A stretch of 52,948 bases of DNA from the NCBI GenBank assembly GCA_038851035.1, contig JAWCLH010000019.1, positions 1-52,948 of the forward strand, read 5' to 3'. The notes beneath the pieces are model-generated. The model was given only the letters and a program-made list of their open reading frames with translations. It was not told the origin of the DNA and ran no database searches. A program made the position numbers and the translations under genes. Source of the DNA: Thermoplasmata archaeon. Lineage in GTDB: Archaea > Thermoplasmatota > DTKX01 > VGTL01. Positions 15,579-52,948 of the stretch are shown here, piece by piece; the first letter of the stretch is position 1, and each line of letters starts with the position of its first letter.

Positions 15579-18500
15579 ATGCACCTTAAGGACATCTACC
15601 TAGAGAACTTCAAGTCGTTCGGAAGGAAGCTGCACATACCCTTCATGCCCGGGTACACGGCAATAACGGGCCCGAACGGCTCCGGGAAGTCCAACATAGC
15701 AGATGCCATCCTCTTTGTGCTCGGGCCCAAGAGTTCTAAGGCCTTGCGGGTCGGCAAGCTCACCGATTTGATTTTCGACGGTGGAAAGGACAAGAAGCCC
15801 GCGACCTTCTGCCGGGTCGTCCTCACATTTGACAACAAGGACAGGACCATTCCGGTGGACGAGGACGAGGTTAGGCTTTGCAGGGTCGTCAGGCTCGCCT
15901 CCCACAGGACTGAGAGAAAGCACACGGAGGGTGGGGATGGGGCGCAGGGTCAGGGGGGCTCCGCTGGGCCCGGGTACTACAGCTACTTCTATGTTAACGA
16001 GAGGGCCTCCTCGCTCAACGAGTTCGACAGCCTCCTCGCCCACGCGCGCATCAGCGCCGATGGTTACAACCTTGTCCAGCAGGGCGACATCAACAGAATC
16101 GTTCTTATGAGCAATCTGGAGAGGCGCAGGATCCTCGACGACATCGCCGGAATAACCCAGTACGACGAGGACATAAAGAAGGCGGAGGAGAAGAGGGCTG
16201 CCACGGAGGAGAATCTTGGCACCATCGAGACCCTTCTAGACGAGGTCAAGAGACAGGTCTCCCAGCTCCAGAGGGAGAGGGACTCGGCGCTGAAGTACAG
16301 GGAGCTGAGGGACAAAAGGGACGAGCTGAAGGTTCAGATTCTGTTCAGGAGGAAGCAGGACGTCGAGGAGGAGATGGCCTCGCTCAATGGGCAGATTCAG
16401 GACCTCCAGAAGGAGCAGGCCGAGATTGGCCGGCAGGTCGAGGAGCTCCAAAAGAGAATCGCCTCCGCAAAAAGCGAGGTCGAGGCGCTAGAGAACAGAA
16501 TCGCCGAGGCGGGGGGGGCGGACGCGCAGGAGCTCCGCAGGAAAATCGACGAGCTACGCCTCGAGGTGATGAGGGCGAAGGACGCCTCCGAGACCGCCAG
16601 GGAGAGAATTCGGCAGTTGAAGGAGGCCAGTGCGGTCACGGCGCAGGACCTGAAGGCGCTGGAGAAGGAGATTGAGGCTGGGAAGGCGGAGGCAGCCCGT
16701 CTATCGTCGGAGCTGGAGGAGCTCAGGGAGAGGGAGAAGGCCACGGCCGGCGAGCTGAAGGAGGCTCAGGACGCGGTCGCCCGGTCCGACACGAGAGCGA
16801 TGAAGCTCCAGAGGGAGCTCATCCTCCGCCGGAAGGAGTTCGACGAGAAGGAGCAGGAGCGGGGGCGGCTCCTGCTGGAGAAGGAGAGGGCCGAGGACAG
16901 GGTCAACAGGCTCGCGCAGGACATCGCCCAGCTCGAGGAGAGCATAAAGAAGTACGAGTTCCAGCTCAGTGACATTGACTTCGACCTGAAGAACCTGAGG
17001 GCGGAGGCGAGGAACTCGAGTGGCTCAAAGAGGGACATCCAATCGGAGTACCAGGCCGCGAAGGAGGAGGAGGCGAAGCTGCTAAGGACGGGCGCGGAGC
17101 TGGAGACGAAGGTGAGGGAGCTCAGGCGGAGGTGGGAGCAGCTCAAGGCCGAGGCGGCGGCCGCCGCGAGCGTGCAGAAGGGCTACAACGCGGCGGTCGA
17201 GGCGATTCTCGATGCGCGCGACAGGGGCGAGCTGAAGGGAATTCACGGTACCGTCGCGGAGCTCGCGTCCGTGAAGCCCGAGCACGAGACCGCTCTGACC
17301 GTGGCCGCGGGAGGGAGGATGCAGTCCATCGTCGTGGACGACGACGAGGCGGCCGCGAGGGCGATAAACTACCTGAAGCAGAAGAAAATCGGGAGGGCGA
17401 TATTCCTCCCACTAAACAAGATGATTCTCGGCAGGCCAGGCGGGAAAGCGCTGATGGCCGTCAAGGACCCATCCTCCCTGGGCTACGCGATGGACCTGGT
17501 CAAGTTCAAGGAGCAGTACAGGGCCGCGTTTTGGTTCGTGTTCGGCGACACCATCGTGGTGAAGGACCTAGACGCCCTCCGCAGGCTTATGGGCGGCGTC
17601 AGGCTGGTCACGCTTGAGGGAGAGCTGGCCGAGCCCTCCGGGGCGATGGTCGGGGGAACGCCCGAGCAGGCATTGGTCAAGTTCGGGGCGCCCTCGGAGA
17701 GTGAGCTGAGGAGGGTCGGACAGGAGCTGAAGGAGGCGGTCGAGGCCTCGGACAAGGTGTCTCAGAGGCTCCAGAAGCTCAGGGAGGCCCTGACCCAGAT
17801 GGAGAGGGAGCTGGCGGAGGCCCACAGCAGGCAGAGCGAGGTCGAGATGAAGGCGGCGGCGCTTGAGTTCAGGCGGAAGGAGTGCGCGGGCACTAGAGAC
17901 CAGCTGAAGAAGGAGAGGGAGGCGAAGCTGAAGGAGATGGACGAGGCGAAGAGAGGTGTGGAGAGGGTTCAGCAGAGGCTGGGCGAGGTAGAAGCTGCGC
18001 TGGAGGCGCTGACGAAGCAGAGGGACGAGATGACAAAGAGCCTCGCCACCGCCACGCCGCAGCAGCTCGCGGCCAAAATCAAGAAGCTCCAGGAGACGCT
18101 CCTGAAGCTCGGTAACGACATACGCGACAGGGAGGCGGCCCTGCAGACCTCCGCCGCCAAGCTCCAGCTCTTGGCTCAGAGGCAGGAGGAGCTGAAGAGG
18201 GCGGCGGCGGCGACGGCGGCGGAGATAAAGGAGTGCGAGTCCTCGATAGTGAGGTCCAAAGAGGTGGCGGCGAAGGCCGGCGACCAGCTCAACGTTCTCA
18301 TGGAGGCAGAGCAGAAGACCTCGAGGGAGCTCAGAGAGTGGCAGGCTAGGAGGGACCAGGCCTACAAGCTCAAGACGGACCTCGAGACCCAGCTCGAGAA
18401 GCTGAACGGGAGGCTCGAGACCCACGGGGACCTGATCATATCGCTCAGGTCGAAGCTCAGGCTGCTTGAGGACAGGCACGCCGAAATCATGGCCGAGATT

Positions 18501-19298
18501 GGGGAGAAAGAGCTGAAGGTCAAGGGGAAGCTCCCCCCTCTCGCCGAGCTGGAGGGAGCCGTCAAAGAGCTCGAGGCGGGGATGCAGGCGCTGGAGCCGG
18601 TCAACATGCTTGCCTTGGAAGAATACGAGAAGCAGGCGAAGCGCTGCGCGGATCTTTCGGCTGAGCTCGAGCAGCTCCGGAGCCAGAGGGAGAACCTCCT
18701 CAAGCTAGTAGAGGAGCTCAACAGCAAGAAGAAGTACGGGCTGAGCAAGGTCTTCAACGCCATAAACAAGAACTTCGGCGAGATATACAAGGAGCTCTCC
18801 GGCGGTGGAAGCGCCGAGCTTATTCTGGAGAACCCGGAGAACCCGTTCGAGGGCGGGCTGATTATCCGGGCCCAGCCGAAGGACAAGAAGGCCCAGAGAC
18901 TCGAGTCCCTCTCAGGTGGGGAGAAGAGCCTGACCGCGCTATCGCTGATATTCGCGATTCAGCAGTACCAGCCCTCGCCCTTCTACCTTCTCGACGAGGT
19001 CGACATGTTCCTGGACGCGGTCAACGCCGAGAACGTGGCCCTGATGATAAAGAAGAATTCAAAGATGGCCCAGTTCGTCCAGATAACTCTGAGAAAGGTC
19101 ACGCTCGCCAACGCGGACTACCGGTACGGCGTGACGATGCAGGGCAACGGCATCAGCGACATCATCGGTAATATAAAGGTGGGGGACGTCGGAGAGGATG
19201 GCAGCATTCGGATAGCTGAGGAGGGGGGTTCTGGCCGCCCGCTGGCCCCTCCGGGTGGGGGAAGTGAGCTGACGGGCTCTGGGAGGATGGGAGACTGA
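15579..19298 (+). CDS. smc: Chromosome segregation ATPase SMC
   Basis: The protein has 1239 residues with the full SMC layout: Walker A GPNGSGKS at 31-38, the Q-loop region NLVQQGDI near 160-170, a long coiled coil, a hinge at about 535-695 (GIHGTVAELASV, FVFGDTIVV), a second coiled coil, signature LSGGEKSL from 1111 and Walker B FYLLDEVD with Asp1139 and Glu1140. A low-complexity insert (about 105-130, rich in Gly, Gln and His) sits in the N-terminal head. It forms a dimer that organises and separates sister chromosomes with ScpA, encoded 42 bases downstream. The ~25 residues after the C-terminal head are Gly/Ser-rich. No ScpB-like gene is in the window. Confidence 0.97.
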   Translation: MHLKDIYLENFKSFGRKLHIPFMPGYTAITGPNGSGKSNIADAILFVLGPKSSKALRVGKLTDLIFDGGKDKKPATFCRVVLTFDNKDRTIPVDEDEVRLCRVVRLASHRTERKHTEGGDGAQGQGGSAGPGYYSYFYVNERASSLNEFDSLLAHARISADGYNLVQQGDINRIVLMSNLERRRILDDIAGITQYDEDIKKAEEKRAATEENLGTIETLLDEVKRQVSQLQRERDSALKYRELRDKRDELKVQILFRRKQDVEEEMASLNGQIQDLQKEQAEIGRQVEELQKRIASAKSEVEALENRIAEAGGADAQELRRKIDELRLEVMRAKDASETARERIRQLKEASAVTAQDLKALEKEIEAGKAEAARLSSELEELREREKATAGELKEAQDAVARSDTRAMKLQRELILRRKEFDEKEQERGRLLLEKERAEDRVNRLAQDIAQLEESIKKYEFQLSDIDFDLKNLRAEARNSSGSKRDIQSEYQAAKEEEAKLLRTGAELETKVRELRRRWEQLKAEAAAAASVQKGYNAAVEAILDARDRGELKGIHGTVAELASVKPEHETALTVAAGGRMQSIVVDDDEAAARAINYLKQKKIGRAIFLPLNKMILGRPGGKALMAVKDPSSLGYAMDLVKFKEQYRAAFWFVFGDTIVVKDLDALRRLMGGVRLVTLEGELAEPSGAMVGGTPEQALVKFGAPSESELRRVGQELKEAVEASDKVSQRLQKLREALTQMERELAEAHSRQSEVEMKAAALEFRRKECAGTRDQLKKEREAKLKEMDEAKRGVERVQQRLGEVEAALEALTKQRDEMTKSLATATPQQLAAKIKKLQETLLKLGNDIRDREAALQTSAAKLQLLAQRQEELKRAAAATAAEIKECESSIVRSKEVAAKAGDQLNVLMEAEQKTSRELREWQARRDQAYKLKTDLETQLEKLNGRLETHGDLIISLRSKLRLLEDRHAEIMAEIGEKELKVKGKLPPLAELEGAVKELEAGMQALEPVNMLALEEYEKQAKRCADLSAELEQLRSQRENLLKLVEELNSKKKYGLSKVFNAINKNFGEIYKELSGGGSAELILENPENPFEGGLIIRAQPKDKKAQRLESLSGGEKSLTALSLIFAIQQYQPSPFYLLDEVDMFLDAVNAENVALMIKKNSKMAQFVQITLRKVTLANADYRYGVTMQGNGISDIIGNIKVGDVGEDGSIRIAEEGGSGRPLAPPGGGSELTGSGRMGD

Positions 19299-19339
19299 AC
19301 GGAAGGCTAAGAAACGGAGGCGGCGGACCGACAGAGGCT

Positions 19340-20500
19340 GTGGAGAGCCCATACGTTCCCGGGTACGTGGGGCCGGAGAGGTACGAGGGCTACGACACCG
19401 GGGAGCAGGTGATCAACCACCTGATTTTCTACAAATCCATCATTAGTGAAGAGGACAGCGGGCAGAAGCTCAGCGAGTATATGGAGCTTGTCCAGAAGCT
19501 CGAGAGGGGTGAGCACCTACCAATAAAGGACCCGTTCGACAAGTCGATCGCTCTCACCTTCGAGCTAGTGATTCAGAACCACCTCAACCCATGGGACGTC
19601 GACCTGCTCAAGTTCTCCAAGCTCTATATGGAGAGAATAAAGAGCGAGCCCGACATAGACTTCGTCACCGCGGGCAGGCTGATGTTCATGGCTTGGTCGG
19701 TGCTGAAACTCCAGTCGGACGAGGTTCTCGCGAGCAACCAGCCGAAGCCCGACACAGCCCCGCAGGACTCTTGGGCCGGCGGGAGCCCCGAGTGGCTCGC
19801 CTCCGACGCCTCCTACGACTTCACCGCCGCCGTGCTCGGGAGCCCGGAGCCGCCGATTCAGGAGAGCGTGTGGAGGAAAGGGACTAGGCCAGTGACGCTC
19901 TACGAGCTCATCGGGGCGTTCGAGGAGGCCCGGAGGGAGGCCGAGCTCCAGAGGGCGCTGGCCGAGGAGAGGAAGAAGCAGAGGCAGCTCTGGGAGAGCC
20001 AGAAGGCCCTCAGAGTGAATAGAATGATTCACAGGGAGGACCTGCAGGACGACATCAGCGCCGTCTGGAGCAGAATCGAACCCCTCTCCGGCAAAATACC
20101 GCTGAGCCGGCTGTGCCCCAGGCAGTGCGACGAGGACAGGCTGACGGCCTTCGTCTCGGTCCTCTTCTTGGCCTACATGAATCAGGTCAGGGTATGGCAG
20201 GAGGACTTCCCGCGGGGTGAGGTTTATGTGGAGAAGGTCGGCGAGGGTGGGCTGGACCTCGAGAAACTCCAGGCAATAACTCACCCTGCAAGGAAGGAGG
20301 TCTGGGACGAGAAAAAGAGAAGGGGGCGCAGGGCGAAAAAGGCCGGGAGCGGTGGGCCAAGGTCTGGGCATGCGCAGGGTGGCGCGGCTCGGGTTAAGGC
20401 CTCGTCGAGTTCTGCGGTGGAGGGTCCCGCGCCCCCGCCATCGGGGGAGAACGGGGCGGGAGGGAGCGAGGAAACCCCGGAGGGGCAGGGCAAAAATTGA
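19340..20500 (+). CDS. scpA: Segregation and condensation protein ScpA
   Basis: The protein has 386 residues. It carries the kleisin N-terminal helices (LSEYMELVQKLERG, FDKSIALTFELVIQNHLNPW, VDLLKFSKLYMERI), with the NPWDVDLL motif that binds the SMC neck, and a winged-helix C-domain (LSRLCP, FVSVLFLAYMNQVRVWQEDF) that binds the SMC cap. The last ~80 residues are basic, then Gly/Pro/Ser-rich, and probably disordered; they are an extension compared with usual ScpA of about 250 residues. The start is a GTG, preceded by GGAGGCGG about 20 bases upstream. The adjacent SMC gene and the overlap or near-contact with the Nudix gene suggest one operon. Confidence 0.93.
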   Translation: MESPYVPGYVGPERYEGYDTGEQVINHLIFYKSIISEEDSGQKLSEYMELVQKLERGEHLPIKDPFDKSIALTFELVIQNHLNPWDVDLLKFSKLYMERIKSEPDIDFVTAGRLMFMAWSVLKLQSDEVLASNQPKPDTAPQDSWAGGSPEWLASDASYDFTAAVLGSPEPPIQESVWRKGTRPVTLYELIGAFEEARREAELQRALAEERKKQRQLWESQKALRVNRMIHREDLQDDISAVWSRIEPLSGKIPLSRLCPRQCDEDRLTAFVSVLFLAYMNQVRVWQEDFPRGEVYVEKVGEGGLDLEKLQAITHPARKEVWDEKKRRGRRAKKAGSGGPRSGHAQGGAARVKASSSSAVEGPAPPPSGENGAGGSEETPEGQGKN

Positions 20501-31141: not shown

Positions 31142-34100
31142 ATGGCAGGGGACCCGGAGAAAAAGAAGGGGTTGGTCCGCGATTTCAAGGCTCGTTGGAG
31201 CCGTGTCTCCAGAGTTGACATTGGCAAGTGCCCCTTCTGCGGTAACCCACTCAAGGACGAAATTGCCCCCTGCAGTCTGTGCGGAGGCTCCAGAGAGGGC
31301 GTTTCGGGCATCACACGCCCTCCAGGCCCCGCCCCCGTGCCCCCTCCCCCTGAGCCCCTACCGGAGCCGGTGGGAGAGGAGCTTGAGATAAAGAAAGACG
31401 AGAGGGACTGGAAGGCCTGGATAGTGCAAGGTGACATCTATTACAACTCCGGTCATCTGCAAAAAGCCCTTGAGGCCTACGACCGCTCCCTCTCCATCCG
31501 CCCCTCTTTCGAAGCCCTGAACAACAAGGGTCTGGTACTGCATCGAGAGGGCAGGCACGCCGAGGCTCTGGAGTGCTTTGAGAAGGCCGTGGAGCTCAAC
31601 CCGGACGATGAGAACCTTTGGTATCACAGGGGCAACGTCCTTCGCGAGCTCGGACGGCACACCGAGGCGATGGACTCCTACGACCGGGCGATATCCCTGA
31701 AGCCCAACTTCGAGAGGGCCTGGGCGGCGGCGGGGCACGCCCTACTGGCGATGGGCCGGAACGAGGAGGCAATTATTTGCTTCGAGTCGGCGCTGAGAAT
31801 TCAGCTCGATAATGAGCACACCTGGCACGCGATAGGCAGCGCCCTCCTCCGCATGAAGAGATACGACGAGGCCGAGACTGCCCTCGCCAAGGCTGTCGAG
31901 ATACGGCCCGACTACTGGGAGGCCTGGTATGAAAGGGCCGCACTCTCGCTCGAGAGGGGACGTTTCCAAGAGGCCATCGAGTTTCTCAGAAAGGTCACGG
32001 AGCACAACCCCCGCCACTGGCGGTCCTGGCTCGAGCTCGGTGCCCTTCTCATGGATAAGGGCGATGAGAGGGAGGCGCTACTATGCTACTCAAAGGCCTC
32101 AGAGAACAGCGCCGGGAGATGGGAGGTCTGGAGGGCGCTCGGGCAATGCTACCTCGGGATGAAGAGATATCAGGAGGCCTCCGCAGCTTTTACTAAAGCC
32201 ACGGAACTCAACCCGGCCAACTCCGCCCTTCTGCAGGAGGCGGCGGAGGCGCACTACCTCGCCGGCAGGCCCGAGCTCACGGTTCAGGCGGCGGAGAAAG
32301 CTCTCGCTCTTGGTGAGACCTCCCAGGCGCTGCTGACGCTCGGCACTGCCTTCCTCCGCACCGGAAGATTTCGGGAGGCGCTGGAGCGTCTCGATAAGGC
32401 CGCCTCTCTCGATGCCGGCTCCCCAAGGGTCTGGCTCGAGAAGGCGAACGCCCATAAAATGCTCGGGGAGCGCGATAAGGCCCTCGAGGCCTGCGAGAGG
32501 GCGCTTTCGCTCAACCCTAGATATGAGAGGGCTCTGGGCCTGCGCTCGGAGATTCTCTTCGAAATGGGCCGCTGGAGGGAGGCACTGGAGGCGGCGGACG
32601 CCGCCCTCGCCCTCAGACCATCTCTGGAAAAGCTCGAGAGAATCGCCGAGCTGCGCGAGATGCTGATCATCGCGGAGGCAGAGAAGTGGAGGAGAGAGGC
32701 TCCCTTACCCGAGGCCGCGCCCCTGACGCCAGAGGAGCTGGTCAGGCTCGGCCTCGAAGCCGGCGCTCCCGCGGTCTCCCCGCCCCCGCCGGTCGAGGTC
32801 CAGCCCCCGGAGGCGCTCCCACCGGAAGAGCTGGTGGCAGTGGAGGCGGAAGCCTTGCCCGAGGCCGTGCCGGAGCTCCGCGAAGGTCTGGAGACGGAGG
32901 AGCCCGCTGTCCCCGGGCTTCAGACGGAGTCGCTTGCGGCAGTGCCCGCCAAGGGAGAGCCAGAAGGAGCCGGGGCCCCGGTGGCCGAGGTGGGTAGGGA
33001 GGTGGAGGAACCCGGCCCCATCGAATTCGAGCTAGTTGAGAGGCCGCTGGTCTCTCGTGATGTCGCGCGGCCTCCGGCCAGACGTCCATCGATGAGGGAG
33101 AAGGGCCTGACAAATGGCCTTGGGCTGACCAACGGCCGTGTTCCGGGAGTCGGAATCGGAGCGGGGCGCAGCCTGAGCAACGGAAGGAGCGGCATAAACG
33201 GCCGCGGGCTGACGAATGGGCGCGGCATCATTAATGGCCGTGGCGTCATCAATGGAAGAGGCGCGATAAACGGCCGCGGCCTCATCAACGGGAAGGGCAT
33301 AATCAACGGGAGAGGGCCTTCGGGCCGCCAGGGCCTCATCAACGGAGTTCCACCAGAGGCCCCGGGTCCCTACGCAGCTCGTCTCCGGAGTAGGAGGGCC
33401 CGGAGAAACATGAGGCTGGCCGCGACTGTGCTCGCCGCGGCTGCGCTCATCCTCGCCCTCCCCTTCGCCGCCATGATTCTGATGAGGCCAGTGGGAATAG
33501 AAATCAATGGCGATTTCTCCGACTGGCTCGGCATCCCGTCCCTTCCCGACAGCTTCGAGGACATGGTCGCCGAGCCGCGGCTCAACATCCTGAACGTGAG
33601 TACTGTTGTGGAGCTGGGCAGAGCCTTTTTCCGAGTGGATGTCGTGGGCAGAATTCTCGATGGGCCTCCGGACGGTGTGGACGTTCTGCGAGTCTTCATA
33701 GACGCCGATTCTTCATCGCGCACCGGCTACTTGATAGCGGGCATCGGCGCCGACAGACTCATCGAGGCCTGGGGGTACAACAACACCGTCCGCGGAACCG
33801 AGCTGCGGGCCTTCAACGCCAGCCGCCCCAGGCTCGACTGGAATGGCTGGAACCTTATCGGGAGCGCTAGCGCCGCCGCGAGGGGCCGCAGCGCCGAGCT
33901 CGGGGCGGCCCTCTCGGACCTAGGCCTCATCGAGGGCAGGACCTATCTGTGTGTTGCTGAACTGGACGACGGGAAGGGCCATAGGGATGTCTCGGACCTC
34001 GTGCTCGGGAGCGAGGGAGGAGCGCTTTTAGTCGAACAGAGTGGACTCGTGCCGGAGGTCGTGAACTCGACCTGCGAGCCCCTGCCGATTCTGAGGGCCA

Positions 34101-36391
34101 GCCTCCGCGCGCTCGTAGCCGAAGTGCCACTCTGTGCGCTCTTGCTCGAACCACTCGGCACCTCCCGGGACCGACCGACGGCTCTCTTGAGCCTGACCAT
34201 TCACCTCGACACAAACCGCAACGGCGTCGTGGACGGTGGCGAGCCGCCGCTCGCAACCGCCGCCCCGACCAGCGGGGGGTGGCAGGTGTGGCTCCCCGAC
34301 CCTCTCGTAGTCACGCCGGGAAAAGAAATCGAACTCCTCGTCTCAGGCCTCTTGCGGCCGGATGCCGGGCTCGGCTCGCCAGTCGGGGCGAGAATTCCCG
34401 CGATGGACGGAGCATTACTCGGGAGGGGGGCCGCCACCATCAGAGGGGGTGGCTCGCTGGGCTTCGTCATCTCTCATTCCCCGGGAATAACCATTGATGG
34501 CTTCTTCAGCGACTGGGCCCACGTCACCATCCTTAACGACACTGACGACGCCCTCCCTCCGGACATCGACATCCTGCACTATGCCTTCGCCTCGGACAGC
34601 CGCTCCCTCTCTTTCTACATGGACGTCGAGGGGGAGATGCTGGGCGGTAATGCGATTCCGGCCTTGGCCAGGGGCAGGCCCGGGAAGCCCTCGCCGGTGC
34701 AACCCGGACCACCACCGGTTCCCCTCCCCCTGCCGGTCGTCACTGGGGAGGACACCGCCGCGGTCCTGATAGACGCGGACCGAAACCCGCGCACGGGAGT
34801 TCAAATCTGGGGAGGAATCGGGGCTGATTTCTGCATTCAGGTACGGGGCAGGGAGGGGAGGGTGACAAGCGCGGAGTGCCACAGGGCGAACGCCTCCGGA
34901 GGCTGGGAGCAGATCGGGCCCGTCCCCGCCGGAGCGGACGGTTGCCGTCTGGAGACGCAGGTCACGTTCGGGCTCCTCGGCATTCCCCCCTCGCAAGTGG
35001 ACGCGGTTCTCTACACCACGGACTGGACGGACCGGAGGGACTACACCGAGCCCTCGCGCGGCCGTGGCGGCGCGCTGGACATCAGCGGCAGGAGCATCCT
35101 GCCTCCGGCCGTCACAGCTGGCGCGGTCTGGCCGGCTCTGGCCCTCACGATGACAGCTTCCGGCGGCGACGTCGTTCTGACCTCGCTGGAGCCGTCGCTG
35201 CTCGGCACGGCGTCGGGCCTGGACGCCCCCCGCGCCCACCTCTTCGCGGACACGGACCACGACGGCGAGTTCACCGGAGCCGACGAGCTTGTGCTCGGTG
35301 GGGAGGCGACTTTCGCCGACGGCCGCTACCTCATCTCGCATGCCCCCCTCCTGATTCCGGAGGGGCGGACGCTTCTCCTTTTCGTCGCGGTGGAGCTATC
35401 GGCAGCAGCGGTGTCAGGGAGAACGCTCGGTCTATCTCTCGAGCGGCCGGAGAGAGTCGAGTCGACCGCCATCTCGGTGTCCGGTGATTTTCCGCTCGCA
35501 TCGGAGCTCGCTGCGATCGCTCCGGGCCGCGGCCGGGGAGGGTGGGAGGCCGAGGAGGGCTGGCTCGTCGTCGCCCTCCCCTCGCCCTGCCAGCTCGTCC
35601 CGGCGGAGTTCGAGAGCGGCTTGCGCGACCCGGGCCGGGGCCCATCGGGGGGCTGGCCATCGAGCTGGACCTGGCTGACCAACGACAGCGACAACAAGGG
35701 CGCGAGCTTCAAGGACATTGACATCCTCTCTCTCTGGATGTACGACGACTCAAATTACATCTATTTCAAAATAAATCTCGAGGACCTCGCCACGCTCTAT
35801 ATCAACGACGAGTGGAACTTCTACTTCAAGACCAATGACTCGAGCAACAACAACTACGACATGTGGTATAGGGTCTCGCTGAGGTGCACGAGCACCGCTA
35901 CGCCTTCATTCAGCTCCTCGTTGAGCAGCTACACCGGCAGCGGCACGCCTGACAGGGGTGACTCCTGGACGGTGAACGAGACCAACACCGGCAACTCGAC
36001 CCTTGACGGGACGATGTACGGCTACTGGTTCGACCAGCAGAACGACTCGGTGATGTTCTATGTGTCCAAGTCCTCGATATACGGAAACCTTCTCGGGCCG
36101 GGCAACACGACCAGCGTCTATGCCGACACCTGGTATTACAGCAACAACAAGTGGCGCAGGTACGATCGCGCGCCGGGCGCAAACAAACTCTTGGACTACA
36201 CCATGATACCCGAGTTCGGGGAGATTCTCGCGCCCGTCGCAGGAAGCATGATATTGTTCGCGCTGTTGAGGAGAGCTGGGTGGCGCAGAGGGCGTTTCAT
36301 AGGGGAATCCAGAAATGTGTCTCCCCGGCGGCCGGGATGCGGGAGGAAAAACCATCGGAAAAGATGCGGGCGCGGGCCGGCGAGCCGGTGA
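31142..36391 (+). CDS. Giant TPR protein anchored across the membrane with three exported beta-sandwich modules and a PEF-CTERM-like end
   Basis: The protein has 1749 residues. A zinc ribbon (CPFCG ... CSLCGG) is at 30-49. Twelve or so TPRs fill about 94-515 (AWIVQGDIYYNSGHLQKALE). A Pro/Glu-rich linker leads to short NG-repeats (about 655-735: GLTNG, GIINGRG, GVINGRG). A single helix (about 758-782) crosses the membrane; the rest is probably outside. Three modules share an INGDFSDW-like opening (about 790-950, 1115-1280 and 1510-1650), as in DOMON/CBM9-type sandwiches. PEFGEILAPVAGSMILFALL from 1690 fits the PEF-CTERM signal, although ~40 residues follow it. It likely links cytoplasmic complexes to the cell surface. 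Confidence 0.8.
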   Translation: MAGDPEKKKGLVRDFKARWSRVSRVDIGKCPFCGNPLKDEIAPCSLCGGSREGVSGITRPPGPAPVPPPPEPLPEPVGEELEIKKDERDWKAWIVQGDIYYNSGHLQKALEAYDRSLSIRPSFEALNNKGLVLHREGRHAEALECFEKAVELNPDDENLWYHRGNVLRELGRHTEAMDSYDRAISLKPNFERAWAAAGHALLAMGRNEEAIICFESALRIQLDNEHTWHAIGSALLRMKRYDEAETALAKAVEIRPDYWEAWYERAALSLERGRFQEAIEFLRKVTEHNPRHWRSWLELGALLMDKGDEREALLCYSKASENSAGRWEVWRALGQCYLGMKRYQEASAAFTKATELNPANSALLQEAAEAHYLAGRPELTVQAAEKALALGETSQALLTLGTAFLRTGRFREALERLDKAASLDAGSPRVWLEKANAHKMLGERDKALEACERALSLNPRYERALGLRSEILFEMGRWREALEAADAALALRPSLEKLERIAELREMLIIAEAEKWRREAPLPEAAPLTPEELVRLGLEAGAPAVSPPPPVEVQPPEALPPEELVAVEAEALPEAVPELREGLETEEPAVPGLQTESLAAVPAKGEPEGAGAPVAEVGREVEEPGPIEFELVERPLVSRDVARPPARRPSMREKGLTNGLGLTNGRVPGVGIGAGRSLSNGRSGINGRGLTNGRGIINGRGVINGRGAINGRGLINGKGIINGRGPSGRQGLINGVPPEAPGPYAARLRSRRARRNMRLAATVLAAAALILALPFAAMILMRPVGIEINGDFSDWLGIPSLPDSFEDMVAEPRLNILNVSTVVELGRAFFRVDVVGRILDGPPDGVDVLRVFIDADSSSRTGYLIAGIGADRLIEAWGYNNTVRGTELRAFNASRPRLDWNGWNLIGSASAAARGRSAELGAALSDLGLIEGRTYLCVAELDDGKGHRDVSDLVLGSEGGALLVEQSGLVPEVVNSTCEPLPILRASLRALVAEVPLCALLLEPLGTSRDRPTALLSLTIHLDTNRNGVVDGGEPPLATAAPTSGGWQVWLPDPLVVTPGKEIELLVSGLLRPDAGLGSPVGARIPAMDGALLGRGAATIRGGGSLGFVISHSPGITIDGFFSDWAHVTILNDTDDALPPDIDILHYAFASDSRSLSFYMDVEGEMLGGNAIPALARGRPGKPSPVQPGPPPVPLPLPVVTGEDTAAVLIDADRNPRTGVQIWGGIGADFCIQVRGREGRVTSAECHRANASGGWEQIGPVPAGADGCRLETQVTFGLLGIPPSQVDAVLYTTDWTDRRDYTEPSRGRGGALDISGRSILPPAVTAGAVWPALALTMTASGGDVVLTSLEPSLLGTASGLDAPRAHLFADTDHDGEFTGADELVLGGEATFADGRYLISHAPLLIPEGRTLLLFVAVELSAAAVSGRTLGLSLERPERVESTAISVSGDFPLASELAAIAPGRGRGGWEAEEGWLVVALPSPCQLVPAEFESGLRDPGRGPSGGWPSSWTWLTNDSDNKGASFKDIDILSLWMYDDSNYIYFKINLEDLATLYINDEWNFYFKTNDSSNNNYDMWYRVSLRCTSTATPSFSSSLSSYTGSGTPDRGDSWTVNETNTGNSTLDGTMYGYWFDQQNDSVMFYVSKSSIYGNLLGPGNTTSVYADTWYYSNNKWRRYDRAPGANKLLDYTMIPEFGEILAPVAGSMILFALLRRAGWRRGRFIGESRNVSPRRPGCGRKNHRKRCGRGPASR

Positions 36392-46810: not shown

Positions 46811-46938
46811 CAGTACCGCTCGAGATAGGTCGTGCCGGGTTAAAGACTTAATCCCTAAGACCTAGGAAACTTTTATCTTCCGCCATCCTTTTGCCCCTGC
46901 CCGGGCTGCTGCAAGAGCCCCCAGCCGGATGTGGAAAA

Positions 46939-47331
46939 ATGTCCGAGGTTCCGAGAGACTTGAGGTACGCCGCTACCCACGAATGGGCCCGTCTGGAAGG
47001 CGAGCTCATTAGGGTGGGGATAACCGACTTCGCCCAAAGCGAGCTCAGCGACATTGTTTTTGTCGAGCTGCCCAAGGTTGGGCAGGAATTGGTAAAAGGA
47101 AAAGAAATGGGAGTTGTCGAATCGGTCAAGTCGGCCTCGGACCTTTACGCCCCAGTCAGCGGACAGGTGGTCGAGGTCAACCAGGCGCTGACCAAAACTC
47201 CTGAACTCATCAACAAATCCCCCTATGGAAGCGGCTGGCTCGTGGTCGTCAGGCCCAAGGATATGAAAGAGCTCGAGAGCCTCCTCGACGCCGCGGCCTA
47301 TGAAAAACTAATACAGGAATCAAAGCACTGA
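46939..47331 (+). CDS. gcvH: Glycine cleavage system H protein
   Basis: The protein has 130 residues. It has the lipoyl-domain motif GVVESVKSASDLYAPVSG with the lipoylated Lys, preceded by the family start LRYATHEW-like (DLRYAATHEWARLE) and ending in DAAAYEKLIQE. It carries the aminomethyl group between P, T and L proteins of the glycine cleavage system or serves as lipoyl carrier in its own right. ATG 46939 follows GGATGTGG; the longer start at 46891 would add a non-conserved leader. No other gcv gene is here, so partners are elsewhere. Confidence 0.95.
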   Translation: MSEVPRDLRYAATHEWARLEGELIRVGITDFAQSELSDIVFVELPKVGQELVKGKEMGVVESVKSASDLYAPVSGQVVEVNQALTKTPELINKSPYGSGWLVVVRPKDMKELESLLDAAAYEKLIQESKH

Positions 47332-47372: not shown

Positions 47373-48404
47373 TTATACGAGCCTCTCAGGGCAGCAGCTG
47401 CGCCTGGAGCAGCTCCGGCACTTGCCGGGTCTCTTGTGGCTCCTGTGGACCTCACCAGTCCTCAGCTTCTCCCTCATCTCGCCAAGCTTGAAAATCACGA
47501 GCATCCTGAGCTCGTTGCTGTACTCGATTCTCTCGTCCCTCTCGGGATAACGAATGATACCCGCCGGCGGGGGCTCGCCGTAGGTCTCTTCGACGAGAAG
47601 CATGTAGGCGCCGAGCTGCAGAATATGGGAGAAGAGCGGTCCTCTAGGCGTCCGGCCAGTCTTCAGCTCCACCGGAACTCTTTTTCCATTCTGGATGAGA
47701 ATCAAGTCGGGCCGTCCCCTCAGGCCGTGGGTTTTCGAATACAGTAGGCCCTCCTCATCCTTATCTTTGGCCGGGGCCGCGGATACGGCGTCAACGTAGT
47801 CGAGCTCCCCTTTCTGGCGGAGGCCTTGTGCCTCCCTGACCCTCGCGGCCCGGGTTCTGCGCGAGAGGGATCTGTAGAAAAAGATGCACGCGCCGATCAG
47901 CCAGGCGACCGCAATAACCTCCGCTACCCTCCCCATCATGGGGTCTGAAACGAGCGCAAGCGGCACTGAGGCGACCGAAATCACCGTGGCGACCATAGCG
48001 AAGACAATGATTAGGGCCTCGTACCTAGCTCTCTCTTCCTTCACTTCAACCGATTCAAAGCGGTAGAGAAAATAAGCGGCTGCGAGAAGCCATATCAGCG
48101 CTACCAGCCCCATCAGTCTGGCGAAGACGTCGGAATAGGAAAAGGGCAGCAGGGCAACTCCGACGATCGCAATAATCGTCGCTACAATCGCGAACCAGAG
48201 CACCGTGACCTCTGAAGAGCGGGCCTCCGCCTCGTCCCTCCTCGCCCCCTCCAATGCCTCGCCCGCCCTCCTGTGCTCCTCCTGACCGACCGAGACGCTG
48301 TCGCCCTCGGCCCTCTGGCCCTGCCTGTCGAGCCACCAACTCAGGTGGCAGTAGGCAAACTTCTCCAGCTCGCTGGCGGAAATGGTCTCCGGCTCCTCCA
48401 CCAT
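47373..48404 (-). CDS. Cas4/RecB-like nuclease with four inserted membrane helices
   Basis: The protein has 343 residues. The front part has SASELEKFAYC with Cys19 and the Cas4-type motif-I His44 (VGQEEHRRAGEA). Residues about 66-180 form four membrane helices. The nuclease core resumes with GRPDLILIQ (Asp233), PVELKTG (Glu246, Lys248) and QLGAY (Gln263, Tyr267); Cys329, Cys332 and Cys337/338 complete the likely 4Fe-4S site. This is the PD-(D/E)XK fold of the Cas4/Dna2 group, split by a membrane insertion. No cas1, cas2, other cas gene or CRISPR array is nearby. The activity is expected to be on DNA ends, held at the membrane. Confidence 0.8.
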   Translation of the reverse strand: MVEEPETISASELEKFAYCHLSWWLDRQGQRAEGDSVSVGQEEHRRAGEALEGARRDEAEARSSEVTVLWFAIVATIIAIVGVALLPFSYSDVFARLMGLVALIWLLAAAYFLYRFESVEVKEERARYEALIIVFAMVATVISVASVPLALVSDPMMGRVAEVIAVAWLIGACIFFYRSLSRRTRAARVREAQGLRQKGELDYVDAVSAAPAKDKDEEGLLYSKTHGLRGRPDLILIQNGKRVPVELKTGRTPRGPLFSHILQLGAYMLLVEETYGEPPPAGIIRYPERDERIEYSNELRMLVIFKLGEMREKLRTGEVHRSHKRPGKCRSCSRRSCCPERLV

Positions 48405-48562: not shown

Positions 48563-49789
48563 TCAGGCCCCGAACTTCTCCGCCCTTCCCGTTAAATCCA
48601 GAAGAATTGGAAGTAGATCCCTTCCCAGCAGCCGCCCCAGCCCTCCCCGCGCGCAAGAGACCTCGTCAAATGTCCTCACGGCGTCCCTCCTCACCCCAGG
48701 CCCGTATATAAGTAGGGGCACGGGGTCGGCCGAGTGGTCCCTGACCGAAACTGGCGTCGAGTGGTCGGAGGTTATCGCGACCACGGTATCACCGGGGAGC
48801 TCCCTCCTGACCAGTGCTAACGCGTCGTCTATCCGCGTGACCACCTGGGCCTTTCCTGGGGCGTCGCCATCATGGCCGCATAGATCCGGAGCCTTTATGT
48901 GGACAAATACCAGCTCATTTTTGTCAATCGCCCTCAGGGCGGCCTTCATCTTGGCCTCGACGTCGGTGTCAAGCCCGCCCGTTGCGCCTCCGACGTCCAA
49001 CACATCCATCCCGGAGAACCTGCAGATTCCCTTGACGAGCGCCACGCCCGCGATGGCAGTGCTCCTGAAGCCATATCTCTCATGCAGGGTTGGGAGGCGG
49101 GGCACGACACCTGCACCCCTTGGAAGGACTATATTTGCGGGAGGAAGGCCTGAGTCCACTCTCGCTCTATTAACGGGATGGTTCTTGAGGAGTTCGTATG
49201 AGCGGCGGACGAATTCGGCGACAACCCTCGCGGTCAGGGCGGCCTCAGGTGATTTTGGAACACATTCTTCGACACGCAGGCCCTCCCGGTGTGGGTCTGC
49301 ATCAGACACGTTCGGTGAGAGACCGGAGCCCCTGAGAAGCAGAACCCCCCTGTGCTCTGTACCCTCTTTAAAAAACACCTGAATTCCATCCAGCTCCCAC
49401 CCGTCCAGTGCTCTCGCCAGCTCCTTCGTCCCTTCGCGTATTCTCCCCGCCCTCCTGTCCAGAACCGTCATCGATTCGTCGACGGTGGCGAAGTTGCAGC
49501 GGAAGGCCACATCGCCCGGTCTCACCTCAAGCCCCACCCCTAGAGCCTCGAAGGGCCCCCTCCCCGTGTAAACCCTGAAGGGATCGTGACCGAAGAGGGC
49601 GAGGTGGGCAGTGTCACTGCCGGGCCTGACGCCGGGTCCAATGATGTCTAGAATTCCACAGGCGCCTCTTGAGGCGAGCCAGTTCAGGTTGGGTTTCCTC
49701 GCGGCCTGAAGAGGCGTCCTCCTGCCCATGCTCTCCACCGGTCGGTCCCCTAGTCCGTCGCAGACGACCATCAGAATTCTTCCCGGCAT
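48563..49789 (-). CDS. apgM: 2,3-bisphosphoglycerate-independent phosphoglycerate mutase, archaeal type
   Basis: The protein has 408 residues with alkaline-phosphatase-superfamily marks: LMVVCDGLGDRP (metal Asp), RPGSDTAHLALFGHDP with the catalytic Ser in GSDTAH, AIDKNELVFVHIKAPDLCGH, and AITSDHSTPV. It interconverts 3- and 2-phosphoglycerate. Its length matches archaeal ApgM. It lies nine bases downstream of the DUF92 gene in the same direction, with no other glycolytic gene in the window. Confidence 0.96.
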   Translation of the reverse strand: MPGRILMVVCDGLGDRPVESMGRRTPLQAARKPNLNWLASRGACGILDIIGPGVRPGSDTAHLALFGHDPFRVYTGRGPFEALGVGLEVRPGDVAFRCNFATVDESMTVLDRRAGRIREGTKELARALDGWELDGIQVFFKEGTEHRGVLLLRGSGLSPNVSDADPHREGLRVEECVPKSPEAALTARVVAEFVRRSYELLKNHPVNRARVDSGLPPANIVLPRGAGVVPRLPTLHERYGFRSTAIAGVALVKGICRFSGMDVLDVGGATGGLDTDVEAKMKAALRAIDKNELVFVHIKAPDLCGHDGDAPGKAQVVTRIDDALALVRRELPGDTVVAITSDHSTPVSVRDHSADPVPLLIYGPGVRRDAVRTFDEVSCARGGLGRLLGRDLLPILLDLTGRAEKFGA

Positions 49790-49798
49790 CGGAGCACC

Positions 49799-50557
49799 TC
49801 ATATCAGCATGAGCACCGCTAGCGCCATCAGGGTGGCGGCTCCAATTGAAAGGATATTGACCCGGTCCTTATTCAACTTTCCCCGGTTCTCGAGGGTTGC
49901 ACCGAGCAAACTGTCGATGTTGCACCCAATGAACCCCATGGAGATGGGAATCAGGATGTAGCTGACGGGGAATGCCGCCAGCTCGCCGGTGAACCAGATC
50001 ACTACCCACCCGATGGCGGATGTATAAACGGCCGCACCAAGTGCGGCGGCCGTGCCAAGAGCGGAGACGCCCCCGTTTGTCCCGGGTTTCACCCTGCTGA
50101 AGTTTGTTATGAGGTAGGCCCTGTCCGAGAGGACCCCGAGCTCGCTGGCGATGGTGTCCGCGGCTGCAGCGCTAAGGGCGGTCAGGAACAGGATAGCTGC
50201 GACGCCCTTGGGAAAAGTGCTGACCCATGGGTTCTCGAAGCTAAGAAGGGCGACGACCATCGGGACCCAGCCGTTGGCAAGCACTGATGCAAAGCCCCTT
50301 GTTCCACCTCTGGGCTCAGCCACTTGAAGCTTCTCTTTTAAAGAATATTTATACCGCGTGGCCACGAATGATGTAATAAGGAAAATAAGAAGTAGAAAGA
50401 GCCAGTAAAGGTGCCCGAATAGGCCGATAATGAGCGCGAGGAAAAAACCGAGAGCGGAGCCGTGAAGGTCGAGGACTCTCTTCCGGTAGGTCAGGCCCGC
50501 GAGAAGGAGGCAGACCGCCACCACTAATGCGGGGTAAACCGGGTCCGGGACAGGCAT
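49799..50557 (-). CDS. DUF92/TMEM19-family membrane protein (possible prenyl- or phytyl-phosphate kinase relative)
   Basis: The protein has 252 residues and about six helices. The motifs RGGTRGFASVLANGW, AAADTIASELGVLS, NFSRVKPGTNGGVSALG and GFIGCNIDSLLGATLE are diagnostic of DUF92. The plant relative VTE6 phosphorylates phytyl phosphate, so a prenyl-phosphate kinase role in archaeal lipid metabolism is plausible but unproven. The start (MPVPDPVYPA) fits the first helix. It lies between UPF0147 and apgM, all on the minus strand with short gaps, and probably forms one operon. Confidence 0.9.
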   Translation of the reverse strand: MPVPDPVYPALVVAVCLLLAGLTYRKRVLDLHGSALGFFLALIIGLFGHLYWLFLLLIFLITSFVATRYKYSLKEKLQVAEPRGGTRGFASVLANGWVPMVVALLSFENPWVSTFPKGVAAILFLTALSAAAADTIASELGVLSDRAYLITNFSRVKPGTNGGVSALGTAAALGAAVYTSAIGWVVIWFTGELAAFPVSYILIPISMGFIGCNIDSLLGATLENRGKLNKDRVNILSIGAATLMALAVLMLI

Positions 50558-50568
50558 TCAGGCCGCAC

Positions 50569-50838
50569 TCATGTCTTTTTCTGGCTGCTCACCGTCTCGA
50601 GCTGGCTGATTATGTTCCAGATGAGGGTGCGGCCGTGCAGGGGGATGTTGGGGTCATTAGCCAGCTCGTCCAAAATGAAGCTGGCGCTCGCGGCCCGCAC
50701 ATCAAGGGCGTCCTTGGGGTTGACCAGGAGGTCCTTCGCTTCTTTGGCTCCGCGCCTGATGTTGCGCGGAACGGAGGTGTCCTCTGCCAGCTGGTCCAGC
50801 ACCTCCGTAATCTGCTTGACCTTCAGCTCCGCTTCCAA
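50569..50838 (-). CDS. UPF0147 family protein
   Basis: The protein has 89 residues and is all-helical: ITEVLDQLAEDTSVPRNIRR, KDALDVRAASASFILDELAN and DPNIPLHGRTLIWNIISQLE. This pattern is typical of UPF0147, a small archaeal family of unknown function. Its length agrees with the family. It starts the minus-strand cluster with DUF92 and apgM. Confidence 0.92.
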   Translation of the reverse strand: MEAELKVKQITEVLDQLAEDTSVPRNIRRGAKEAKDLLVNPKDALDVRAASASFILDELANDPNIPLHGRTLIWNIISQLETVSSQKKT

Positions 50839-52050: not shown

Positions 52051-52948
52051 TGTGGAGTCCTGAATTAAGTTCCTCTCGTTGATTTGAGTTCATGTCCCGG
52101 ACCCCCTCTCTACCGTGAATCCCTCTTCCAATAGATAGGCAGGGGCATATCTGGCAACCATCTTGATATTCTCCCTGATGAACGCCCTTCTCTTTGCAGG
52201 CCACATCTTCCTGATGAACGCCTGGAACGGCGTCTCGCACTCCTCGAGCCTGAGGCTCCAGTGCGGCCTTCTGTAGTTATAGTAGCTCACTGCCCTCTCA
52301 AGCCCCCCGAAGTGCCCGATGAGCCTCATAATAGTTCCAGCCGCCTTCTCCACTTTCCCGTTGGATTGAGGATGCTTCACCCTGGCCTTCACATGTTCTA
52401 TCCCGTTCTCCTCGAGCCATTTCTGGAACATGTTCAATCCCGGTTCCGCACAGCTCTCTCTTGGTAAGGATGTGAATTGTGTTCCATGGTCGGTCATGAG
52501 CTGCCTGGGCTTGCCATAAGCTGCCACAGCCTTTTTGAGGGCTCTTAGACTATTCTGAGCGGTGGCATTTTTATATGAGCCGGCCCCCACCAGCAGCCTT
52601 GAAGCGTCGTCCTCTATAAGAATTACATACACACCCCCAATCTCTACCCAGTCAGCGTGCCAGAGAGAGTTGCTGTGCTTCCTCTCATACCGGACCCACT
52701 TCCGGCGTCTCTGCTTCCTGGGTTCATCTTTTGCCAGTCCATTCTCTTTAAGGATCCTGTGAATGCGGTTGTGTGGGATATTTATCCCCTCCTCACTTTC
52801 AATTGCCTTCTCCAGGATGAATGCTCCGGATGCTGGATGCCTGGCTCTTGCCCTCATTACATATTCCCTCTCTTCATCAGTGATTGGCTTAGGGGATGCC
52901 CCGGGCTTTTTAGGATATGGATATTCGCCCCTCTCACTATACCTGCGG
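52051..52948 (-). mobile_element. IS481-type insertion sequence, partial (runs off the right edge)
   Basis: The element contains a transposase on the minus strand. A candidate left end is TGTGGAGTCCTGAATTAAG at 52051, since many IS481 ends begin TGT and it lies about 40 bases past the transposase stop; the matching inverted repeat is outside the window, so the limit is tentative. Confidence 0.6.
52090..52948 (-). CDS. IS481-type DDE transposase (partial, N-terminus beyond the window)
   Basis: There are 285 visible residues, open to the edge, so the N-terminus (HTH part) is missing. The catalytic core has SLWHADWVEIGGVYVILIED (Asp), MTDHGTQFTS (Asp) and KHPQSNGKVEKAAGTIMRLI (Glu), the DDE triad of the rve integrase-core fold. 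YNYRRPHWSLRLEECETP is the typical C-terminal segment of IS481 enzymes. The visible part reads without frameshift or stop, so the element may be active. It shows no archaea-specific feature; these elements move between bacteria and archaea. Confidence 0.9.
   Translation of the reverse strand, partial: RRYSERGEYPYPKKPGASPKPITDEEREYVMRARARHPASGAFILEKAIESEEGINIPHNRIHRILKENGLAKDEPRKQRRRKWVRYERKHSNSLWHADWVEIGGVYVILIEDDASRLLVGAGSYKNATAQNSLRALKKAVAAYGKPRQLMTDHGTQFTSLPRESCAEPGLNMFQKWLEENGIEHVKARVKHPQSNGKVEKAAGTIMRLIGHFGGLERAVSYYNYRRPHWSLRLEECETPFQAFIRKMWPAKRRAFIRENIKMVARYAPAYLLEEGFTVERGSGT

Follow-up and report, generated by a model that had tools for sequence, protein, structure and literature searches.

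Does the gene at positions 47373-48404 of the window, the 52,948-nucleotide stretch of Thermoplasmata archaeon DNA analysed here, encode a single Cas4-type nuclease whose chain passes through the membrane, and if so, which DNA would such an enzyme process? The initial annotation had described an open reading frame at these coordinates, without a strand, as a Cas4-like nuclease split by four transmembrane helices. The reading frame proved to be real and to lie on the minus strand, and the parts of the nuclease were located as follows.

47373-48404, minus strand: whole membrane Cas4-family nuclease gene, 343 aa (ATG at 48404, stop at 47375-47373)
48225-48404, minus strand: N-terminal lobe, residues 1-60, SASELEKFAYCxLSWWL ... 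H, with Cys19 and His44 invariant; the long helix 35-85 of the model begins here
48348-48350, minus strand: Cys19, predicted first 4Fe-4S ligand, invariant in 74 orthologues
48273-48275, minus strand: His44, predicted active-site histidine, invariant in the 74 orthologues
47376-47807, minus strand: PD-(D/E)XK nuclease core, residues 200-343, from Pfam/TIGR00372 and Foldseek (4ic1, 2.8e-5)
47706-47708, minus strand: Asp233, catalytic metal ligand by motif, from the alignment of 74 orthologues
47661-47669, minus strand: Glu246-x-Lys248 catalytic motif, from the alignment; Glu replaced by Asp in 5/74
47604-47618, minus strand: Gln263-x3-Tyr267, RecB/Cas4-type motif, from the alignment; Gln replaced by Arg in 3/74
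47391-47420, minus strand: Cys329-x2-Cys332-x5-Cys338, the other predicted 4Fe-4S ligands, invariant in the 74 orthologues

Residues 214-339 of the product score above the cut-off of the Cas4 equivalog profile TIGR00372 (71.8 bits against 65, E 5.9e-20), and the protein matches PF12705 (PDDEXK_1, 1.1e-14) and PF01930 (Cas4, 8e-7; 29.7 bits against a cut-off of 22.7); PADLOC models also call proteins of this type Cas4. The sole match in a sequence search of the PDB was SSO0001 (4ic1, 1.1e-4). The AlphaFold2 model, built from 74 aligned orthologues (mean pLDDT 84.9, pTM 0.81), has the same Cas4 as its best Foldseek match in the PDB (2.8e-5, probability 1.00), with the type I-C Cas4 8d3q at 3.6e-5 (probability 1.00), and the top matches are solely Cas4-like and related nucleases, including a Cas4/1 fusion complex, Dna2 and MGME1. 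The Cas4-type assignment thus stands, and structure prediction, suggested at the outset to see whether the two halves fold together, places the Cas4 fold and the membrane helices in one model. In this model a long helix (35-85) runs from the N-lobe into the membrane, helices 91-118 and 122-146 cross it, and helix 155-192 returns to the nuclease, where the mixed sheet of the core follows. As judged from sequence and model, the window protein is a Cas4 fold whose chain is interrupted after the Cys19/His44 lobe.

The key residues listed in the initial annotation are all present, with one correction: Cys337 is not conserved, and Cys338 is the predicted cluster ligand. Cys19, His44, Asp233, Lys248, His260, Tyr267, Cys329, Cys332 and Cys338 are invariant in the alignment (74/74), so the loss of active-site residues in orthologues that had been named as counter-evidence does not occur. 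Glu246 is replaced by Asp in five proteins (L063, L067, L077, L096, L100), three of which (L063, L067, L077) also have Arg in place of Gln263. Conservation of the catalytic residues in these 74 proteins speaks against a catalytically dead membrane protein. The Cas4-family cysteine pattern, one N-terminal and three C-terminal, is present, and the one N-lobe and three core cysteines probably bind a 4Fe-4S cluster. A metal-dependent exonuclease that degrades ssDNA in the 5'-3' direction, Sso0001 carries a 4Fe-4S cluster that resembles the 'staple' of AddB, and it requires all four cysteines to be soluble (PMC3466216). By homology with Sso0001, the membrane form should hold the same cluster and cut DNA ends.

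Is the membrane part a genuine component of this protein? The hydrophobic segments (residues 68-86, 94-112, 131-149 and 163-181) are all well over threshold and lie between Cys19/His44 and Asp233; they form two hairpins.

48045-48221, minus strand: transmembrane hairpin 1, residues 62-120 (TM1 ~68-86, TM2 ~94-112), from hydrophobicity and the model
47853-48044, minus strand: transmembrane hairpin 2, residues 121-184 (TM3 ~131-149, TM4 ~163-181), a copy of hairpin 1 by hhalign

Hydrophobicity, AlphaFold2 and about 80 independent full-length orthologues with the same insert agree on the four helices originally noted. The nearest orthologue (genome G001) is 58% identical across residues 4-313, where the match is ended by the end of its contig. 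Close orthologue pairs have dN/dS of 0.03-0.26 over the whole gene; membrane part and core are both constrained, the core more so, and the membrane part equals the N-lobe in conservation (mean consensus identity 0.5-0.6 for both). The insert-bearing loop lies outside the conserved catalytic motifs, which suggests that the membrane helices serve to anchor or position the enzyme and take no part in catalysis. Relatives with two separate genes exist (see below) and could be taken to mean that an assembly or sequencing error fused two genes here, the helices being foreign to the nuclease, an outcome that the initial annotation had named as counter-evidence. This explanation has practically no chance of being right: about 100 independent genomes carry the fused form, its dN/dS is far below 1, and the split relatives keep one helix in each half. 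Fusion by error was accordingly ruled out.

The helices come in pairs. The two hairpins align with each other in hhalign (probability 99.1, E 6e-19, 33% identity, a score that membrane composition may inflate) and have in common the motif WLxxAxxFLYR. Among the 107 proteins in which both flanking motifs are readable, the insert contains four helices in 90, two in 9 and eight in 6 at a lenient threshold; the number is thus even in 105/107 and odd in two (one with three, one with five), while stricter thresholds lose a weak fourth helix in some, so that 9 to 13 proteins are counted as three. The protein ranges from 264 to 580 aa, or is encoded by two genes. Lysine plus arginine averages 2.97 in the middle, inner loop, and the outer loops have averages of 0.41 and 0.53. 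Taken together, the even helix number and this charge bias place the N-lobe and the core both on the cytoplasmic side.

An independent view of this topology came from a search of 26 genomes with weak or partial matches, which uncovered a form made of two adjacent genes, A and B, in families f27, f16 and f7 and across many genera. Gene A (~80-110 aa) encodes the Cys19/His44 lobe followed by a single helix that ends within a few residues of the C-terminus; gene B (~165-190 aa) encodes one helix, then the core and the cysteine triad. In locus L119, for instance, A occupies 1152-1484 and B 1477-2016 (stop to stop), and further examples are L124, L127, L133 and L134. In every A/B pair with both genes read, the break falls at the outer loop of the hairpin; A is therefore expected to be N-in/C-out and B N-out/C-in. 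Both proteins are conserved between close A/B pairs (66-83% identity, dN ~0.10-0.23, dS saturated). As read from the genes, this natural split gives direct support for the topology and for lobes that would assemble as separate chains; it amounts to a built-in topology test, and an active site and metal cluster divided between two membrane proteins would be an unusual case. The tree needs two to three split/fusion changes; with its deep branches poorly resolved and bootstrap support not settled, it is compatible with one or several splits, or with fusions.

Where does this protein occur, and does it travel with CRISPR or mobile elements? The phyletic survey called for in the initial annotation found it in 270 of 395 Thermoplasmatota genomes (at least 85% complete) and 113 of 149 genera, a vertical and near-universal distribution; it is also present in 40 of 60 relatives of the source genome. 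About a third of the phylum does not have the gene, which is not essential there. In a search of 84,980 species genomes, the best 80 of 220 loci all have record titles that fit Thermoplasmatota (Thermoplasmata, Methanomassiliicoccales, DHVE2/Aciduliprofundum, halophilic Thermoplasmata and 'Euryarchaeota' bins). No membrane Cas4 copy was found in the viral contigs and phage records searched, and the reading as a mobile-element gene was rejected; a plasmid collection gave one weak, core-only match, to a cyanobacterial plasmid. Membrane Cas4 is a chromosomal, vertically inherited solo-Cas4 of Thermoplasmatota. A second RecB-like family (L211, L215; 376-387 aa) is found outside CRISPR loci in several of the same genomes; it is soluble and different, and was ruled out as a member of membrane Cas4.

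The Cas4 family name given by NCBIfam and PADLOC models would be consistent with a Cas4 that works at the membrane in antiviral defence or as an accessory to CRISPR. That is very unlikely. The source genome, 99% complete, has no Cas1, so that the absence of a CRISPR locus first noted for the window holds beyond it as well. (Absence cannot be read from a PF01930 profile search of the genome, since that search overlooked even the window gene.) Among the 60 relatives, Cas1 occurs in 10/40 genomes with membrane Cas4 versus 8/20 without; presence of membrane Cas4 does not track Cas1. In the tree, membrane Cas4 forms a clade apart from the CRISPR Cas4 of the same phylum (support 100/99). Its neighbours are not cas genes, PADLOC detecting among them only generic similarity to PLD proteins (DrmC-type), and its inheritance is vertical, in non-defence contexts. 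A CRISPR role as the main reading was ruled out by the missing Cas1, the lack of co-occurrence and the separate clade. The automated label 'CRISPR-associated Cas4' is misleading, and plain 'Cas4' is probably the name under which databases carry these proteins.

The question then becomes which process the neighbouring genes point to. Those of the window gene are housekeeping genes:

48563-49789, minus strand: 2,3-bisphosphoglycerate-independent phosphoglycerate mutase, upstream neighbour
49799-50557: DUF92 gene, upstream of the phosphoglycerate mutase gene
50569-50838: UPF0147 gene, beyond DUF92
46891-47331, plus strand: glycine cleavage H protein (gcvH), convergent neighbour

The order phosphoglycerate mutase, DUF92, UPF0147 is kept in the same-family genome G001, and in other lineages the neighbours are GlmS, an MtnA-like protein, phosphoglycerate mutase, a TPD protein or a PLD-LTD protein. 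The search for conserved neighbours suggested beforehand found links to smc-scpA, PLD-LTD and TPD, with a context that differs from one lineage to another, so that no single pathway is indicated. Synteny within a family can persist by descent, and the PLD, TPD and smc-scpA contexts do not carry equal weight as leads; recurrence in different arrangements strengthens the PLD link, and a tight operon with matching absences strengthens the smc-scpA link. A protein with the TPD motif (PF14811, the family of human CDIN1/C15orf41) is encoded directly upstream in 23/80 loci (e.g. L062:7167-7952), a neighbourhood that may hint at what the CDIN1 family does. A nucleic-acid-binding TRAM domain (PF01938, 1.1e-10) is fused to the C-terminal, cytoplasmic end of an eight-helix member (L014:382-2340). 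In about 31 loci within the range L033-L106 (e.g. L043:5795-6648), a convergent pair of genes for small membrane proteins (~114 and 150-175 aa) without a Pfam match runs a few bases into the 3' end of the Cas4 gene. The window also contains, at 31142-36391 on the plus strand, a gene for a TPR-repeat protein of 1749 aa, in which a low-complexity stretch of NGRG-type repeats precedes a TM helix and a large C-terminal region, and, near its end (52090-52857, minus strand), a transposase/integrase-core reading frame that is probably an insertion sequence.

The PLD-LTD protein bears on whether membrane Cas4 acts on DNA entering the cell. This protein (PLDc_2 and lamin-tail domains, in some cases PKD, a signal peptide and a C-terminal helix) is encoded directly upstream, on the same strand, in 19/80 loci, and recurs near membrane Cas4 in other arrangements in f24 (L107, L151, L254), f5 (L247) and f21 (L251, L252). 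Its model (pLDDT 78.5, pTM 0.64) resembles phospholipases D and PLD3/PLD4, the latter being lysosomal ssDNA 5' exonucleases. One could therefore imagine a DNA-entry nuclease, serving nutrition or protection, that is paired with this secreted, membrane-anchored enzyme: the outer enzyme would cut or unwind DNA that is extracellular or has been injected, and the strand that reaches the cytoplasm would be degraded by the Cas4 core. I regard this as possible but unlikely. A PLD fold does not tell a nuclease from a lipase, and PLD-LTD proteins are present in 56/60 relatives regardless of membrane Cas4. No ComEC was detected in the 60 relatives by a search whose control was positive in 10/14, which speaks against a ComEC-type uptake partner. 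Membrane Cas4 is, moreover, absent from the viral and phage collections and is inherited vertically, without the patchiness of a defence gene. A role in DNA uptake, or in processing DNA that enters from outside or belongs to phages or plasmids, as first envisaged, is therefore not my first choice; the secreted PLD-type neighbour keeps DNA entry alive as the less likely reading.

The tightest operon link of membrane Cas4, observed in one family only, is with smc-scpA. In all 21 f27 genomes with the split genes (loci L165-L171, L221-L239, L241 and L243), the order is smc-scpA-cas4A-cas4B, with ends that overlap or nearly touch; A or B comes immediately after scpA, A often overlapping the scpA stop, and in several genomes a tyrosyl/tryptophanyl-tRNA synthetase gene follows the row. 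Five f27 genomes without the cas4A-cas4B pair (G049, G065, G112, G045, G053) have other genes after scpA, which suggests loss of the pair in part of the family. The f27 SMC is identified beyond doubt by Pfam (2.8e-48, hinge 2.8e-27). Its partner is kleisin-like, overlaps smc by 4 bases and scores 19.4 bits, below the Pfam cut-off of 24.6; it is called scpA-like here, an assignment that rests partly on position. Homologous genes are found in the window:

15579-20500, plus strand: SMC and ScpA-like genes, 27 kb from the Cas4 gene, homologous to the f27 genes that precede cas4A-cas4B

A tentative hypothesis is that in several Thermoplasmatota lineages two single-pass subunits, divided at the outer loop, share one Fe-S cluster and paired helices, and that at least in one family, f27 (probably Thermoplasma/Ferroplasma), they provide the SMC-ScpA condensin with a membrane anchor and a nuclease. 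If true, a two-subunit membrane Cas4 would couple chromosome organisation to the processing of DNA ends at the membrane. The same linkage, together with a membrane part as well conserved as the N-lobe, could also be explained by a nuclease domain that serves mainly as a DNA-binding tether or sensor at the membrane, for attachment or segregation of chromosome or plasmid, with cutting secondary or lost; a viral Cas4 derivative is reported to have turned into a nucleocapsid protein (PMC4625639). The catalytic residues are under strong constraint, however, Asp233, Lys248, His260 and Tyr267 being invariant in 74 proteins, and such a tether is improbable.

With the architecture established from sequence and model, I infer the rest, namely cluster, activity, substrate and partner binding, and give about even odds to a membrane-docked Fe-S exonuclease that processes DNA ends of the cell's own chromosome as a housekeeping function. 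In sequence and model, the chain leaves the nuclease after the Cys19/His44 lobe, crosses the membrane two, four or eight times as repeated two-helix hairpins, and comes back into the cytoplasm, where it supplies the rest of the catalytic core and the C-terminal cysteine triad. In the three split families the outer hairpin loop is open, and two single-pass proteins take the place of one, A with Cys19/His44 and a helix, B with a helix and the core. Lobes or subunits would be pinned together by helix packing and by a 4Fe-4S cluster to which the N-lobe contributes one ligand and the core three, an 'iron staple' as in AddB/Cas4. The enzyme would be a metal-dependent ssDNA exonuclease working at the inner membrane face, where it would trim or resect the DNA ends of the host chromosome, a housekeeping role for which one family shows a link with the SMC-ScpA condensin. 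The TRAM fusion, the smc-scpA operon, vertical inheritance, the lack of a Cas1 link and the biochemistry of Sso0001 argue for this chromosomal role. Against it, smc-scpA is the context in one family only, with housekeeping, TPD or PLD-LTD neighbours elsewhere, and it is hard to see why a chromosomal substrate should call for four to eight helices. The whole suggests a widespread arrangement that keeps the processing of DNA ends at the cell membrane.

How does this protein compare with known systems? The initial annotation knew of no system with this layout; none was found in the open-licence literature either, which yielded no transmembrane Cas4 and no ScpA-Cas4 link, and the main text of the 2017 survey of the Cas4 family has no mention of Thermoplasma(ta) or of a transmembrane Cas4. 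CRISPR Cas4 (type I-C, 8d3q) has the same fold and motifs but is soluble, encoded with cas1/cas2 and in a separate clade. AddB, Exo5, Dna2 and MGME1 have the RecB-type fold in common with membrane Cas4, yet none of them is known to be a polytopic protein or to be divided within a membrane loop. AddB and Dna2, both linked to helicases, tolerate long spacers after the first Cys/His lobe and before the core, where the insert sits here; Dna2 and Exo5 have an iron staple from an N-terminal Cys to a C-terminal Cys triad, and MGME1 has no cluster. In AddB the iron staple likewise joins the N-terminal Cys to the C-terminal triad (PMC3466216). The f27 row differs from Wadjet/JetABCD in its housekeeping-type smc, its scpA-like gene and its Cas4-type membrane nuclease. 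As in other SMC-nuclease systems, in Wadjet/JetABCD the nuclease is encoded beside the SMC complex. The closest relative is solo-Cas4 (Sso0001, PDB 4ic1, COG1468/PF01930), which shares the PD-(D/E)XK core, the pattern of one cysteine on the N-terminal side and three on the C-terminal side, and a non-CRISPR setting; archaeal solo-Cas4 genes lie outside CRISPR loci and are mostly vertically inherited (PMC5704561, PMC3466216). Typical solo-Cas4, however, is a soluble single domain of ~180-220 aa, a description that membrane Cas4 does not fit, and Sso0001 was purified as a soluble protein, with no membrane insert and no split gene, in contrast to the two, four or eight TM helices of membrane Cas4. 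Solo-Cas4 proteins occur in most archaea, and here the membrane, smc-scpA, PLD-LTD and TPD clues make the function of one branch testable, in some cases possibly in cultivable archaea.
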